Assembly (NCBI RefSeq): GCF_003202035.1
Contig: NZ_QJKC01000008.1
Span: forward strand, 124,001 to 188,000
Direction of reading: 5' to 3'
Length of the DNA stretch: 64,000 bases
Source: Aquitalea magnusonii
Lineage (GTDB): Bacteria > Pseudomonadota > Gammaproteobacteria > Burkholderiales > Chromobacteriaceae
Within the stretch, counting starts at the first letter, position 1. Each line of letters starts with the position of its first letter. Positions 26,535-32,360 of this stretch are shown piece by piece. The translations under genes and the position numbers were made by a program. Below the pieces are notes generated by a model. The model ran no database searches, was not told the origin of the DNA, and was given only the letters and a program-made list of their open reading frames with translations.

Positions 26535-26894
26535 TCAGGCATGAGCGGCCGCTTCGCCACCAAACTCTTCAAAAGCCTGCAGCGCCTCTGCCGCCGTCAT
26601 CAGCGACGGTCCGCCGCCCATGTACACCGCCACTTGCAGCATTTCCATGAACTCGGCGCGGCTGCAACCCAGCTCCACCAGCGCCTTGCTATGGAAGGCC
26701 AGACAGCCCTGGCAACGGCTGGCGATGCCGATGGCCAGCGCGATCAGCTCCTTGGTCTTGTTGGACAGCGCGCCATCGGCATGGGCGGCGCGGCTCATCT
26801 GGCCGAAGCCCTTCATGGTTTCAGGTATTTCGCGGCGGAAGTCGGCCAGCTTGCTGCCCAGATCGCGGGCCAGTGCGGTGTAATCATGACTCAT
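26535..26894 (-). CDS. Carboxymuconolactone decarboxylase/AhpD-like protein
   Basis: A 119-residue all-helical protein of the AhpD superfamily with the redox motif C-QG-C-LAF-H (CxxC followed by His), typical of alkylhydroperoxidase-like members rather than the decarboxylase proper. It probably acts in peroxide or thiol redox chemistry. A GAGGAG Shine-Dalgarno precedes the ATG. It is divergent from the sigma-54 activator gene, with a long A+T-rich palindrome between them. Confidence 0.88.
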   Translation of the reverse strand: MSHDYTALARDLGSKLADFRREIPETMKGFGQMSRAAHADGALSNKTKELIALAIGIASRCQGCLAFHSKALVELGCSRAEFMEMLQVAVYMGGGPSLMTAAEALQAFEEFGGEAAAHA

Positions 26895-26924
26895 GGAAAG
26901 CTCCTCAGCTGTTTTGCATGATTT

Positions 26925-26948
26925 ATATTATATATTTTTATATAATAT
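26925..26948. promoter_or_regulatory. 24-bp perfect A/T palindrome between divergent genes
   Basis: ATATTATATA-TTTT-TATATAATAT is a perfect 10-bp inverted repeat made only of A and T. It lies 31 bp before the AhpD-like start and contains a TATAAT on the plus strand, so it can overlap promoters. It is strikingly A/T-pure for this GC-rich region and is most likely an operator. Confidence 0.6.
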
Positions 26949-27027
26949 TGCAAGCCGACCAAGCAGCTTGGCGATGCGCCCGGCCTGCGTGGTAATCTGC
27001 CGCATCCACCTTGGCCAAGGACAGACC

Positions 27028-28437
27028 GTGCCCCACTCCGCTTCCGAACTGGCAGATTATGATCACGTCCGGCAATGGGCGATGCAGTCGCTGTTCCAGC
27101 ATATGGACGATCTCTACCAGGGCACGGTAATCGTGGACGAGCAGGCGCGCATCATCTGGATCAATGCCCGCTATGCCGGGCGCTTCGGCTTTGCCGACCC
27201 GCAAAGCGCACTGGGCCAGCCAGTGGAAAACGTCATTCCCAATAGCCAGATGCGCGAGGTGCTGCGCACCGGCGAACCCATGCTGCTGGACATCATGCCC
27301 ACCGGCGACGACCAGCTGGTGGTCACCCGCCTGCCGCTGAAGGATGCAAGCGGCCGTACGGTGGGCGCGGTCGGCTTTGCCCTGTTCGACCAGATCCAGT
27401 CACTGGCGCCGCTGGTGGCCAAATTCACCCGGCTGGCCGAGGAACTGGCCGCCACCCGCGAATCGCTGGCGCAGGCACGCCGTGCCAAATACAGCTTTGA
27501 ACATTTTGTCGGCGACAGCCCGCTGATCAGCGAGGTCAAGCGCCAGGCGCGGCTGGCGGCACCGCTGGAAGGGGCAGTGTTGTTGCTGGGCGAAACCGGC
27601 ACCGGCAAGGAAGTGCTGGCTCACGCCATTCACGCTGCCTCGCCACGGGCAGGCAAGCCGCTGGTCAGCCTGAACATGGCGGCCATTCCCGACACCCTGC
27701 TGGAAGCCGAGTTGTTTGGTGCCAGCGCCGGCGCCTATACCGGGGCGGACAAGAAAGGTCGCAGCGGCAAGCTGCAACTGGCCGATGGCGGCACGCTGTT
27801 TCTGGATGAAATCGGCGACATGCCGGCCGCACTGCAGGCCAAGCTGCTGCGGGTATTGCAGGACAAGGAGTTCGAACAGCTGGGCTCCAACCGCGTGCTG
27901 CGCGCGGATATCCGCATCATTGCCGCCACCTCGGCCCGGCTGGAAGAAAAAGTCAGCGCCGGCAGCTTCCGCGCCGATCTCTACTACCGGCTGAATGTAC
28001 TGACCATCCAGCTGCCGCCGCTGCGCGCCCATCTGCAGGATTTGCCCGTGCTGTGCGAATCGCTGCTGCTGCAACTGGCACAGCGCGGCCACATGGGGCG
28101 CTGCCAGCTGACCGCGGCGGCCCTGCAGCGGCTGGCCGCCTACCACTGGCCGGGCAATGTGCGCGAGCTGCGCAATATTCTGGAGCGGGCCAGCATGCTC
28201 AGCCAGGGCGACATGCTGGACGAAGCCGACATCAGCAGCCTGCTCGGCCCCTTGCCTGCCGGGCAGCAGGATGGCGGCGACTATCAGCAGCACATGGCGC
28301 GTTTCGAGGCGCAATTGCTGCGGCAGGCACTGGCCAGCGCCGCCGGCCATGTGCCGACAGCCGCCCGCCAGCTGGGCATGGGCCGCGCCACCCTGTACAA
28401 GAAGCTGGCGGCGCTGGGCATCCGCACCTCCCCCTGA
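27028..28437 (+). CDS. Sigma-54-dependent activator with N-terminal PAS domain
   Basis: A 469-residue enhancer-binding protein. Residues from about 20 to 130 form a PAS-like sensor (GTVIVDEQARIIWINARYAGRFG). The AAA+ domain has Walker A GETGTGKE, the sigma-54 contact loop as GAYTGA rather than GAFTGA, Walker B GGTLFLDEIGDM and the WPGNVRELRN signature. A C-terminal Fis-type helix-turn-helix ends it (AARQLGMGRATLYKKL). The GTG start at 27028 has an AAGGA site. It stands directly before a sigma-54 promoter and the ketone-body genes, so it is their likely activator; the signal sensed by PAS is unknown. Confidence 0.88.
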   Translation: MPHSASELADYDHVRQWAMQSLFQHMDDLYQGTVIVDEQARIIWINARYAGRFGFADPQSALGQPVENVIPNSQMREVLRTGEPMLLDIMPTGDDQLVVTRLPLKDASGRTVGAVGFALFDQIQSLAPLVAKFTRLAEELAATRESLAQARRAKYSFEHFVGDSPLISEVKRQARLAAPLEGAVLLLGETGTGKEVLAHAIHAASPRAGKPLVSLNMAAIPDTLLEAELFGASAGAYTGADKKGRSGKLQLADGGTLFLDEIGDMPAALQAKLLRVLQDKEFEQLGSNRVLRADIRIIAATSARLEEKVSAGSFRADLYYRLNVLTIQLPPLRAHLQDLPVLCESLLLQLAQRGHMGRCQLTAAALQRLAAYHWPGNVRELRNILERASMLSQGDMLDEADISSLLGPLPAGQQDGGDYQQHMARFEAQLLRQALASAAGHVPTAARQLGMGRATLYKKLAALGIRTSP

Positions 28438-28453
28438 GGGGTCGTCCGGGCTC

Positions 28454-28469
28454 GTCTCCAAACAGAGAC
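28454..28469. promoter_or_regulatory. Upstream activator site 1
   Basis: GTCTC-CAAACA-GAGAC, a 16-bp dyad identical to the copy at 28544. Its position, 153-168 bp before the -24 GG, is typical for a sigma-54 enhancer. Confidence 0.75.
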
Positions 28470-28543
28470 GGCGTCCACCGGACGAGACAGCCAGCGCACA
28501 CCCCGCCAACAGCGGCCCGGATAGGGGCCGCCAGCGCCATAGC

Positions 28544-28559
28544 GTCTCCAAACAGAGAC
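28544..28559. promoter_or_regulatory. Upstream activator site 2
   Basis: A second identical copy of the 16-bp dyad, 90 bp from the first and about 64 bp before the -24 GG. The pair probably binds the adjacent activator. Confidence 0.75.
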
Positions 28560-28621
28560 AGCAAGCCCTCACCGCCAGCACAAATCACAGCAAGTGATTG
28601 ATTTTATTCAGTCATCAATTC

Positions 28622-28637
28622 AGGCACGCTTCCTGCT
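28622..28637 (+). promoter_or_regulatory. Sigma-54 promoter of the ketone-body operon
   Basis: AGGCACG-CTTC-CTGCT matches TGGCACG-N4-TTGCW in all but two positions. The GG (28623-28624) and GC (28635-28636) have the required spacing. Transcription would start near 28648, giving a leader of about 75 bases before the permease. Confidence 0.8.
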
Positions 28638-28721
28638 GTTATCCCGTTCAGGGACCTGGCCATGCGTCAGGTCCACACAAGGGCCCCGCAGTGGGCCGCA
28701 CAACAATAGAGGAGATGCACC

Positions 28722-30113
28722 ATGAGTTTTATCGTGGTTTTGCTGGCACTGTTCTTCCTGATGCTGGCCGCCTACCGCGGCTATAGCGTCATCCTGATGG
28801 CCCCGCTGGCGGCACTGGGTGCCGTGCTGCTGACCGACCCCTCGGCCGTGGCGCCTGCCTTCAGCGGGCTGTTCATGGACAAGATGGTGGGCTTCGTCAA
28901 ACTGTACTTTCCGGTATTCCTGCTCGGTTCGGTGTTTGGCAAGCTGGTGGAGCTGTCCGGCTTTTCCAAATCCATTGTCGCCGCCGTCATCCGCTTTATC
29001 GGCGAGAAACGCGCCATCGCCGTCATCGTCGCCGTGTGCGCGCTGCTGACTTATGGCGGGGTTTCGCTGTTTGTGGTGGTGTTCGCCGTCTATCCCTTTG
29101 CCGCCGAGATGTTCCGCCAGAGCAATATTCCCAAGCGGCTGATTCCCGGCACCGTGGCGCTGGGCGCCTTTTCCTTCACCATGGATGCGCTACCGGGTAC
29201 CCCGCAGATCCAGAACATCATCCCCACGACATTCTTCAAGACCACGGCCTGGGCCGCGCCGGCGCTGGGTGTGGTGGGCGCGCTGTTCATCACCATCGTC
29301 GGCCTCACTTATCTGGAATGGCGCCGCCGCAGCCTGATGGCCAAGGGCGAAGGCTATGGCACCGACTTGCGCAACGAGCCGGAACAGATCGACACCAGCA
29401 ATCTGCCCTCGCCCTGGCTGGCCATTGCCCCCTTGCTATTGATCGGCATCAGCAACTTTGCCTTCACCCGCTGGATTCCGGCCTGGTATGGCGCCAGCCA
29501 CGAGCTGAAACTGGCCGGCATGGCCAAGCCGGTCACCACGCAGATCTCCACCGTCACCGCCATCTGGTCGGTGGAAGCCGCCCTGCTGCTGGGCATTGCC
29601 TTTGTGGTGCTGACCGCCTGGCCCGCCATCCGCGAGAAGTTTGCCGAAGGCAGCAAGGGCGCGATTGCCGGGGCCATGCTGGCGGCGATGAACACCGCCT
29701 CGGAATACGGCTTTGGTGCGGTGATTGCCGCCCTGCCCGGCTTTATGGTGATTGCGCATGCCTTGCAGAACATTCCCAACCCGCTGGTCAATGCCGCCGT
29801 CACCGTCAGCACGCTGGCCGGCGTGACTGGTTCGGCCTCCGGCGGCATGAGCATTGCGCTGGCCGCCATGGGCGAGCAGTTCATCAGCGCCTGCCAGGCT
29901 GCCGGCATTCCGCTGGAAGTGCTGCACCGGGTAGTCGCCATGGCCAGTGGCGGCATGGACACCCTGCCGCATAACGGCGCAGTGATCACCCTGCTGGCGG
30001 TCACCGGCCTCACCCACCGCGAGGCTTACCGCGACATCTTTGCCGTCACCCTGATCAAGACGCTGGCGGTGTTCTTCGTGATTACCGTGTTCTATCTCAC
30101 CGGTCTTGTGTAA
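28722..30113 (+). CDS. GntP family permease (probable 3-hydroxybutyrate or short organic-acid uptake)
   Basis: A 463-residue, roughly 12-14-helix inner-membrane transporter of the GntP family, with conserved GGVSLFVVVFAVYPFAAEMFR, ALPGTPQIQNIIPT and GASGGMSIALAAMG-like (SASGGMSIALAAMG) segments. GntP members import gluconate or hydroxy-acids; neighbouring 3-hydroxybutyrate dehydrogenase and CoA-transferase genes make 3-hydroxybutyrate or acetoacetate the likely cargo (inference). GAGGAG lies before the ATG. It is the first gene after the sigma-54 promoter. Confidence 0.87.
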   Translation: MSFIVVLLALFFLMLAAYRGYSVILMAPLAALGAVLLTDPSAVAPAFSGLFMDKMVGFVKLYFPVFLLGSVFGKLVELSGFSKSIVAAVIRFIGEKRAIAVIVAVCALLTYGGVSLFVVVFAVYPFAAEMFRQSNIPKRLIPGTVALGAFSFTMDALPGTPQIQNIIPTTFFKTTAWAAPALGVVGALFITIVGLTYLEWRRRSLMAKGEGYGTDLRNEPEQIDTSNLPSPWLAIAPLLLIGISNFAFTRWIPAWYGASHELKLAGMAKPVTTQISTVTAIWSVEAALLLGIAFVVLTAWPAIREKFAEGSKGAIAGAMLAAMNTASEYGFGAVIAALPGFMVIAHALQNIPNPLVNAAVTVSTLAGVTGSASGGMSIALAAMGEQFISACQAAGIPLEVLHRVVAMASGGMDTLPHNGAVITLLAVTGLTHREAYRDIFAVTLIKTLAVFFVITVFYLTGLV

Positions 30114-30129
30114 ACCCATCCATCACAGC

Positions 30130-30151
30130 GGCCCCGCCCTGCGGCGGGGCC
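30130..30151. repeat. Intercistronic hairpin between permease and dehydrogenase
   Basis: GGCCCCGCC and GGCGGGGCC with a 4-base loop. There is no T-run; it may protect or separate parts of the operon mRNA. Confidence 0.5.
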
Positions 30152-30167
30152 TGACAGGATAAGCATC

Positions 30168-30944
30168 ATGACTTCACTGGCAGGAAAAACCGCGCTGGTT
30201 ACCGGCTCCACCAGCGGCATTGGTCTGGGCATTGCCCAGGCGCTGGCCGAGGCCGGCGCCAATATCGTGCTCAACGGCTTTGGCGATATTGAAGCGGCAC
30301 TGGCCCACATCCGCACCACCGGCGTGCGGGCCTGGCATAACCCGGCAGATTTGTCCGACCCGGCCCAGATCGACGCATTGTGCGCCTTTGCCGCACACGA
30401 AACCGGCGGCGTGGACATTCTGGTCAACAATGCCGGCATCCAGCATGTGGCGCCCATCGAGACCTTTCCCCCGGCGCAATGGGACAAGGTGCTGGCCATC
30501 AATCTGAGCGCGGTGTTCCACACCAGCCGCCTGCTGTTGCCGCTGATGCGCCAGCGCGGCTGGGGCCGCATCATCAATATCGCCTCTACCCATGGCCTGG
30601 TGGCCTCCAGCGGCAAATCCGCCTATGTAGCCGCCAAGCACGGCGTGCTGGGCCTGACCAAGACCGTGGCGCTGGAAACCGCCCACAGCCCCGTCACCTG
30701 CAATGCCATTTGTCCGGGCTGGGTGCTCACCCCGCTGGTGGCACAGCAGATAGCCGACCGTGCCAAAGCGCAGGGCATCAGCCCTGAGCAGGCCCAGCGC
30801 GACTTGCTGGCCGAGAAACAACCCTCCGGCCAGTTTGTCACGCCGCAGCAACTGGGCGCGCTGGCGGTGTTTCTGTGCAGTCCGGCGGCCGACGAAGTAC
30901 GCGGCGCCACCTGGGCCATGGATGGCGGCTGGACCGCCCAATAA
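30168..30944 (+). CDS. bdhA: 3-hydroxybutyrate dehydrogenase
   Basis: A 258-residue SDR oxidising D-3-hydroxybutyrate to acetoacetate with NAD. The nucleotide motif is [12 protein letters not shown] and NNAGIQHV is the core; catalytic S140, Y153 and K157 are in place ([10 protein letters not shown]...SAYVAAKHG). The C-terminal [13 protein letters not shown] is typical of bacterial BDH. Next to a CoA-transferase pair, this gives the route 3-hydroxybutyrate to acetoacetate to acetoacetyl-CoA. Confidence 0.93.
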
Positions 30945-30963
30945 GCAAAGCAAGGACCATGCA

Positions 30964-31677
30964 ATGAACAAGCTTTACCCGGATGCCGCCAGCGCGCTGG
31001 CGGACATTGTGGCCGACGGCCAGACCATCGCCGTGGGCGGCTTTGGCCTGTGCGGCATCCCCGAGGCGCTGATCGCCGCGCTGCGCGACAGCGGCGTGCG
31101 CAATCTCACCGCCATTTCCAATAATGCCGGGGTGGACGGCTTTGGCCTGGGCCAGCTGCTCAATACCCGGCAGATCCGCAAGATGATTGCCTCCTATGTG
31201 GGAGAGAACAAGGAATTCGAACGCCAGTACCTGAGCGGCGAGCTGGAGCTGGAATTCACCCCGCAAGGCACGCTGGCGGAAAAACTGCGCGCCGGCGGCA
31301 GCGGCATTCCGGCCTTTTTCACCCGCACCGGCTACGGCACGCTGGTGGCCGAGGGCAAGGAAGTGCGCGAATTCAACGGCCTGCCGCATATCCTGGAGCA
31401 GGCGTTGCAGGCCGATGTGGCGCTGGTCAAGGCCTGGAAGGCCGACCGCGCCGGTAATCTGCTTTACCGCCGTACCGCGCGCAATTTCAATCCCAATGTC
31501 GCCATGGCCGGACGCATCACCGTGGCCGAGGTAGAAGAGATCGTGGAAAACGGCATGCTGGACCCGGACGCCATCCACACCCCCGGCATTTTCGTGCAGC
31601 GACTGGTGCTCAATCTCCATCCCGAAAAACGCATCGAGCAGCGCACCGTGCGCGCTGCCAGTCTGGCGGAGGCATAA
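30964..31677 (+). CDS. scoA: 3-oxoacid CoA-transferase subunit A
   Basis: A 237-residue alpha subunit of a succinyl-CoA:acetoacetate-type CoA-transferase. The typical start [34 protein letters not shown] holds the glycine-rich CoA-binding motif, followed by SNNAG and the [16 protein letters not shown] segment. It works with subunit B encoded 2 bp downstream. Succinyl-CoA as donor is probable from the family, but acetate-type (AtoDA) specificity cannot be excluded. Confidence 0.93.
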
Positions 31678-31679
31678 GC

Positions 31680-32360
31680 ATGGCCTGGACCCGAGAACAA
31701 ATGGCCGCCCGTGCGGCACAGGAATTGCAGGACGGCTTTTATGTCAATCTGGGCATTGGCCTGCCCACGCTGGTGGCCAATCATGTGCCCGCCGGCATGG
31801 AGGTATGGCTGCAGTCGGAAAACGGCCTGCTGGGCATCGGCCCGTTTCCGACCGCAGACGAGATAGACCCGGACCTGATCAACGCCGGCAAGCAGACCAT
31901 CACCACCCTGCCCGGCTCGGCCATTTTCAGCTCGGCCGACTCCTTCGGCATGATTCGCGGCGGCAAGATCGATCTGGCCATTCTGGGGGCGATGCAGGTG
32001 AGCCAGCGTGGCGATCTGGCGAACTGGATGATTCCCGGCAAGATGGTCAAGGGCATGGGCGGCGCGATGGACCTGGTGGCTGGCGTCGGCAAGGTGGTGG
32101 TGCTGATGGAACATACCGCCAAGAAAAAGGACGGCAGCGAAGAAGCCAAGCTGCTGGAGCGCTGCACCCTGCCGCTGACCGGCGTGGGGGTGGTCAGCCT
32201 GATCATCACCGACCTGGGGGTGATCCGGGTGGAGGCCGACGGCCTGCATCTGCAGGAGCTGGCGCCGGGTGTCAGCCTGCATGACATCTGCTCGCGCACC
32301 GCTGCGCCGCTGAAGCTGTCGGCCATGGTCAGCAGCGGACAGCCCGCCTTGGCCTGCTGA
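31680..32360 (+). CDS. scoB: 3-oxoacid CoA-transferase subunit B
   Basis: The 226-residue beta subunit bearing the catalytic glutamate E47 in the SENGLLG motif, which forms the glutamyl-CoA thioester. Other family segments are [17 protein letters not shown] and [11 protein letters not shown]. Translation is probably coupled to subunit A. A bidirectional terminator follows and ends the operon. Confidence 0.95.

Follow-up and report, generated by a model that had tools for sequence, protein, structure and literature searches.

A probable HbcR-type sigma-54 switch with three predicted operator dyads before a 3-hydroxybutyrate operon in Aquitalea magnusonii

What reads the repeated palindromes that lie between a sigma-54 activator gene and a permease gene in Aquitalea magnusonii? 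The locus is part of the 64,000 nt stretch of contig NZ_QJKC01000008.1 (assembly GCF_003202035.1, genome 4.4 Mb) analysed here and called the window. An activator open reading frame (26893-28437) is followed by a 284-bp intergenic region and by genes for a permease, a dehydrogenase and two CoA-transferase subunits, ending at 32360 (Table 1). A sequence-only reading of the locus had proposed a sigma-54 switch with two identical dyads. Our comparisons make it highly likely that this is an HbcR-type switch in which the activator reads three dyads and drives a 3-hydroxybutyrate operon; by sequence, the activator very probably binds all three copies.

Both GTCTC-N6-GAGAC dyads of the sequence-only reading are present where it placed them. 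They are one and the same 16-mer (GTCTCCAAACAGAGAC) with starts 90 bp apart, and the pattern occurs twice in the window versus a mean of 0.01 in 100 dinucleotide shuffles, of which 0/100 reached two. That set was incomplete, since the region also contains a third, degenerate dyad and an integration host factor (IHF)-like site. In an alignment of the intergenic region from nine genus genomes including our own (a tenth, G008, was handled separately), the degenerate dyad 2 follows dyad 1 at 19 bp and precedes dyad 3 by 71 bp, or by 72 bp in two genomes; the left arm of dyad 2 reads GTCCA in the window, GTCTA in seven relatives and perfect in G009. The three dyads stand in register in 9/9 aligned promoters, with arms kept and spacers diverged. 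Exact dyads all lie at this promoter in nine of the ten genus genomes, two each in eight and three in G009; G008 has none.

A genome-wide search for the dyad, suggested by the same reading, returned exact matches at these two sites and nowhere else. The reversed control pattern also gave two exact matches, and at ≤1 mismatch the genome holds 18 dyads (the exact two included) versus 44 for the control. Because the control is equally or more frequent, it is the clustering and not the genome-wide number that carries weight; with no enrichment over the control in this search, no further target is claimed. An exact match is also present in 40 of the 61 family genomes, and the reversed control matches in many as well, so an exact dyad by itself has no value as a marker away from this locus.

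Table 1. Features of the predicted switch and its operon, in window positions
Feature	Position	Strand	Basis or remark
HbcR-like sigma-54 enhancer-binding protein	27028-28437	+	PAS, AAA+ with GAYTGA, Fis-type helix-turn-helix (HTH), recognition helix GRATLYKK; likely start GTG 27028
Dyad 1, GTCTC-CAAACA-GAGAC	28454-28469	.	pattern search, genus alignment
Dyad 2, degenerate, GTCCA-CCGGAC-GAGAC	28473-28488	.	genus alignment
Dyad 3, GTCTC-CAAACA-GAGAC	28544-28559	.	starts 78 bp before start of -24 box
IHF-like site, CAAGTGATTGATT (+ strand letters)	28591-28603	-	reverse complement fits WATCAANNNNTTR with 0 mismatches; predicted only
-24/-12 sigma-54 box, AGGCACGCTTCCTGCT, GG-N10-GC	28622-28637	+	conserved in genus; two departures from pattern TGGCAYNNNNNTTGC
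Permease	28722-30113	+	predicted ion-transporter-superfamily fold; no Pfam model
3-hydroxybutyrate dehydrogenase	30168-30944	+	PRK12429 357 bits, TIGR01963 353 bits, both above cut-off; PDB 2q2q E 2e-115
3-oxoacid CoA-transferase subunit A	30964-31677	+	TIGR02429 above cut-off
3-oxoacid CoA-transferase subunit B	31680-32360	+	TIGR02428 above cut-off

Across families, the dyads accompany the activator, even in loci that transcribe it divergently. A search for the permease gave matches in 13/61 family genomes at 1e-40, one of them weak and partial, in 24/300 order genomes at 1e-90 (in four of these the five loci L157-L161 are only 43-45% identical and were excluded from later counts), in 5/369 class genomes at 1e-150, our own included, and in 55/79 Pseudomonas genomes at 1e-150. 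We searched 89 upstream regions at ≤1 mismatch and sorted the adjacent activators into K-, E- and R-types by a residue of the recognition helix. All 69 K-type loci (69/69) have a dyad, a perfect one in 58; these loci, 16 outside Pseudomonas and 53 within, include near relatives and are not independent. Dyads occur in only 2/17 regions with no activator in the DNA read, which for several loci was a 1.5 kb flank, and in 0/1 with an E-type neighbour (L173); the R-type locus of the set (L197) has no GTCTC dyad, and L192, where the helix is unreadable, has dyads. The chance level, from dinucleotide-shuffled regions, was about 1% (17/1780).

GTCTC-type dyads (≤1 mismatch), the same operator as in Aquitalea, precede 54/56 of the Pseudomonas permease loci read, the exceptions being L197 with its R-type activator and L240, a second copy with no activator in the DNA read. 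The class-wide search yielded five further permease loci, spread over four genomes besides our own. The 450 bp upstream of these genes hold no dyad at ≤2 mismatches, and no activator helix was recognised within 1.5 kb; the word WPGN occurs at L286, where stops interrupt its frame, and we attribute it to chance. Within the genus, G008 (61% complete) has a 95% identical permease beside a CMD gene (L179, G008:C18:1-8000) with no activator or dehydrogenase in the 8 kb read, and no dyad at ≤1 mismatch (one 2-mismatch word) or fitting box in its promoter. The activator genes of L192 and L279 look broken (helix unreadable; one internal TGA), possibly through sequencing errors.

This coupling bears on the idea that the dyads serve another regulator, such as a repressor, and lie near the activator gene by coincidence. 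Such a regulator would fit loci L163 and L165, the two positives among the 17, where three dyads at ≤1 mismatch precede the permease and the 9.5 and 11 kb read contain no activator; their activator may be located elsewhere in those genomes. However, it is very unlikely given that dyads follow the activator from family to family, divergent arrangement included, and that recognition-helix residue and half-site change together.

Aligned activators with GTCTC dyads have a Y-K-K or Y-K-R recognition helix. Y-E-K homologs are found at L173, at L007-L010 (Rhodocyclaceae/Rhodocyclales) and at L012 (Motiliproteus); L007-L010 and L012 do not adjoin the permease, and the only dyad at ≤1 mismatch in their loci, at 6804 in L010, is distant from the activator and was put down to chance. 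L197 combines a Y-R-K helix with ATCCC-N6-GGGAT in place of dyad 3. Its activator gave 191 matches at 1e-215 in 398 Pseudomonas genomes, and the best 30 of 191, which were read, comprise eight Y-R-K (86-100% identity, L197 itself included) and 22 Y-K-K helices. None of the eight Y-R-K loci has a GTCTC dyad at ≤1 mismatch. Their dyads read GTCCC-N6-GGGAC, with dyads 1 and 3 GTCCC-like in 8/8 and dyad 2 in 6/8 (≤2 mismatches). When half-site position 4 was left open, it was C in 35/36 half-sites and T in one for the R clade (18 dyads from 7/8 genomes, none for L255 at threshold), versus T in 91/92 and C in one for the 22 K-type relatives (46 dyads).

The covariation of helix residue and half-site is the strongest sign that the activator reads the dyad, and together with the coupling across families it gives good support to the proposal of a sigma-54 switch for 3-hydroxybutyrate/acetoacetate use, read through the dyads. 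The residue aligns by eye with LuxO Arg427, listed among critical recognition-helix residues in an excerpt of PMC11407668. We consider it likely that K to R at position 458 of the 469-aa activator determines which base is read at half-site position 4, K going with T and R with C, and that the promoter dyads of one Pseudomonas clade switched along. If true, this would be a natural activator-enhancer pair, possibly orthogonal, and would contribute to a recognition code for sigma-54 activators with a Fis-type HTH.

Spacing was tabulated for 84 promoters, of which 64 have a box fitting the pattern within 160 bp of the gene; the boxless ones are 12 without activator and eight K-type. Taking as dyad 3 the best-matching dyad with ≤2 mismatches in the range of 60-90 bp upstream of the box, we found it in 60/64, at a distance of 77-80 bp in 50, 66-69 bp in nine and 88 bp in one. 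These classes step by about one helical turn, as expected if helix face matters. The four boxed promoters without a dyad in this range are L168, L169, L173 and L197, the last two having no GTCTC dyad. Dyads 1 and 2 are spaced 18-21 bp in 44/60 promoters where the pair was recognised, and the pair-to-dyad 3 distance ranges from 57 to 170 bp. Helical phasing of the dyad 2-dyad 3 distance was weak and is not claimed (R 0.37 for 37 values and 0.35 for 25 distinct values at 10.5 bp, best period 11.1; the nine Aquitalea promoters were entered as two values).

Could the dyads instead be RNA hairpins, as a terminator or attenuator of the activator gene? They lie directly downstream of that gene in Aquitalea and Pseudomonas, and a symmetric change in both arms would likewise keep an RNA stem. 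However, no T run follows the dyads in the window, and in the four f31 loci (L166-L169) the dyads are not downstream of the activator because it is divergent there. Distances to the -24 box that change by about one helical turn, and the covariation with an HTH residue, also speak against an RNA role, making hairpins extremely improbable.

The promoter had been described as well spaced, and its GG-N10-GC spacing is indeed intact, with two departures from the pattern and a frequency near chance in the window. The box is credible because it is conserved across the genus promoters, not on its own score. A conserved GG-N10-GC box with activator sites upstream, the pattern of a sigma-54 promoter, is present here. 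The genome has one rpoN copy; dependence of the operon on RpoN is predicted. Between dyad 3 and the promoter, the 13-bp match to WATCAANNNNTTR, which we take to be the IHF consensus, is perfect in 8/9 genus promoters and has one mismatch in the ninth. An IHF-like site at ≤1 mismatch occurs in 55/60 dyad 3-to-box spacers, versus 13.6% of mononucleotide shuffles, a weak control.

The activator bears the PAS domain and GAYTGA loop that the sequence-only reading had ascribed to it, with PAS_4 at residues 74-163, Sigma54_activat at 206-373 and HTH_8 at 469-507 (514-aa numbering); no receiver-domain model matched in the profile search. Its scores stay below the cut-offs of the AtoC model NF008469 (277 bits vs 714) and the PrdR model NF041552 (336.5 bits vs 795). 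In the region 26535-27030, GTG 27028 (469 aa) is the likelier start over ATG 26893, because AAGGA precedes the GTG, homologs align late and ATG 26893 overlaps the start of a divergent CMD gene. Beyond the closest relatives, alignments with homologs mostly begin near residue 39-66. In two close relatives they begin earlier (L003 at residue 11, L006 at residue 1), for which DNA similarity alone could be enough.

Downstream, the dehydrogenase and the CoA-transferase named by that reading match their models, the latter with both subunits. Its statement that all parts of the module are present is slightly too strong: the five genes do not include a thiolase, and for the permease no match to a Pfam or NCBIfam model or to a PDB sequence was found. 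The predicted permease structure (mean predicted local distance difference test score 77) has its best PDB fold matches in an MleN integrative model and in TRAP and DASS carriers (best TM score 0.64), which would be consistent with an organic-anion carrier and indicates no substrate. A second 3-hydroxybutyrate dehydrogenase above cut-off lies elsewhere in the genome (C6:182855-183619, L214), followed by a patatin-like phospholipase gene (DUF3734).

These parts suggest how the switch may work. Activator dimers would bind the three dyads upstream of the permease gene. Two of these are neighbours, spaced by 19 bp here and by 18-21 bp in other loci, which is about two turns of the helix; the third usually lies at 78-79 bp from the -24 box. 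A bend that IHF probably introduces between dyad 3 and the promoter would bring the assembled AAA+ ring to RNA polymerase-sigma-54. The probable signal for the PAS domain is (R)-3-hydroxybutyrate or a close product; sensing it would switch on ATPase-driven promoter opening at the -24/-12 box. The proteins made on induction would import the acid, convert it to acetoacetate by oxidation and activate this by CoA transfer.

The same switch might answer to acetoacetate, a longer 3-hydroxy acid or another ligand in place of (R)-3-hydroxybutyrate. The predicted fold of the permease points to no particular substrate, and one analysis, in an excerpt of PMC8694187, assigns the HbcR PAS domain to autoinducer-type binding. 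Operon content speaks against another signal, as does the response of P. fluorescens SBW25, whose motility is rescued by overexpressed HbcR when R-3-hydroxybutyrate is supplied (PMC10482368, in excerpt); we regard a different natural ligand as rather unlikely.

Besides that PAS assignment and the two loci that keep dyads with no activator nearby, several observations weigh against an HbcR-type switch reading its dyads as proposed. Boxes at least as good as this one are about as frequent in the window as expected by chance (243 found vs a mean of 219), and no box fits the pattern in 8/69 K-type loci. The nearest dyad lies 100 bp (L168) and 192 bp (L169) before the box. CoA-transferase genes were found in 0/4 of the f31 loci and were likewise not found in P. 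simiae, and within the 11 kb read L167 and L168 lack a dehydrogenase as well. The comparison with E-type activators is thin, L173 being the sole Y-E-K homolog adjoining the permease, and the R-type comparison covers the best 30 of 191 matches. In a tree of 41 rows, which carries a long-branch warning among the E-type rows, the R group sits on one branch; the K-to-R and T-to-C shift is thus probably a single evolutionary event, with several half-sites moving together with one residue. The comparison with HbcR was drawn through the P. simiae locus (L183) in place of PA2005 (P. aeruginosa PAO1) or PFLU2630 (SBW25). In P. putida KT2440, according to an excerpt of PMC13390443, cells can do without the canonical dehydrogenase PP_3073, and the main flux passes through a LysR-regulated operon, so a 3-hydroxybutyrate module of this kind is not necessarily the main route everywhere.

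A second pair of palindromes in the genome, GTCTC-N6-GCGAC at C1:329934 and C1:330064, was considered as a dyad target and not counted, being part of a different, longer palindrome. This paired element (C1:329934-330079; L213 2435-2580), about TGTCKCAG-N2-CTGCGACA with starts 130 bp apart, precedes a 4HB chemoreceptor gene and lies beside genes resembling those for FapB/FapC amyloid subunits (below cut-off). It recurs in G002, G005 and G007, is degenerate in G008 and looks like the operator of another regulator.

PA2005 (HbcR) and RpoN are said, in the title of Lundgren 2015, to regulate (R)-3-hydroxybutyrate metabolism in P. aeruginosa. The sigma-54 regulator of hbdH is required there for growth on (R)-3-hydroxybutyrate, according to an excerpt of PMC13390443. 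Judged by its sequence, the module described here is the Aquitalea version of this Pseudomonas system. In the P. simiae locus, the genes for activator, permease and 3-hydroxybutyrate dehydrogenase come in the same order, and a -24/-12 box is accompanied by the same dyads, one of them exact and the other with a single mismatch; the locus differs in having an acetoacetate-CoA ligase next, whereas Aquitalea has the two-subunit CoA-transferase, and the Aquitalea activator is 51% identical to its counterpart. From gene order and kinship, we infer that the P. simiae activator corresponds to SBW25 HbcR. AtoC, the response regulator of AtoS in Escherichia coli, is likewise a sigma-54 AAA+ activator of acetoacetate use, but has a receiver domain where the Aquitalea activator has PAS. 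For GcsR of P. aeruginosa, an excerpt of PMC4894688 describes an RpoN box preceded by three palindromic sites, interpreted as sites for three dimers, which resemble the predicted three-site enhancer of Aquitalea; GcsR differs, according to the same excerpt, in its tandem half-sites (TGTAACG-N4-CGTTCCG) and as a TyrR-like regulator of glycine cleavage.

The system itself is thus known and ordinary, and the novelty is the operator definition and the K/R-T/C covariation. Our literature search found no publication stating the HbcR operator, which the primary paper (Lundgren 2015) may state. Comparison of sequences makes the predicted operator anatomy (three dyads, IHF-like site, preferred spacing) and the candidate specificity residue unusually clear. 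The analysis provides a predicted operator with preferred spacings for an HbcR-type sigma-54 switch and a one-residue, one-base-pair specificity hypothesis, and connects the Pseudomonas HbcR, which has been studied by experiment, with Aquitalea and further loci from the same taxonomic order.

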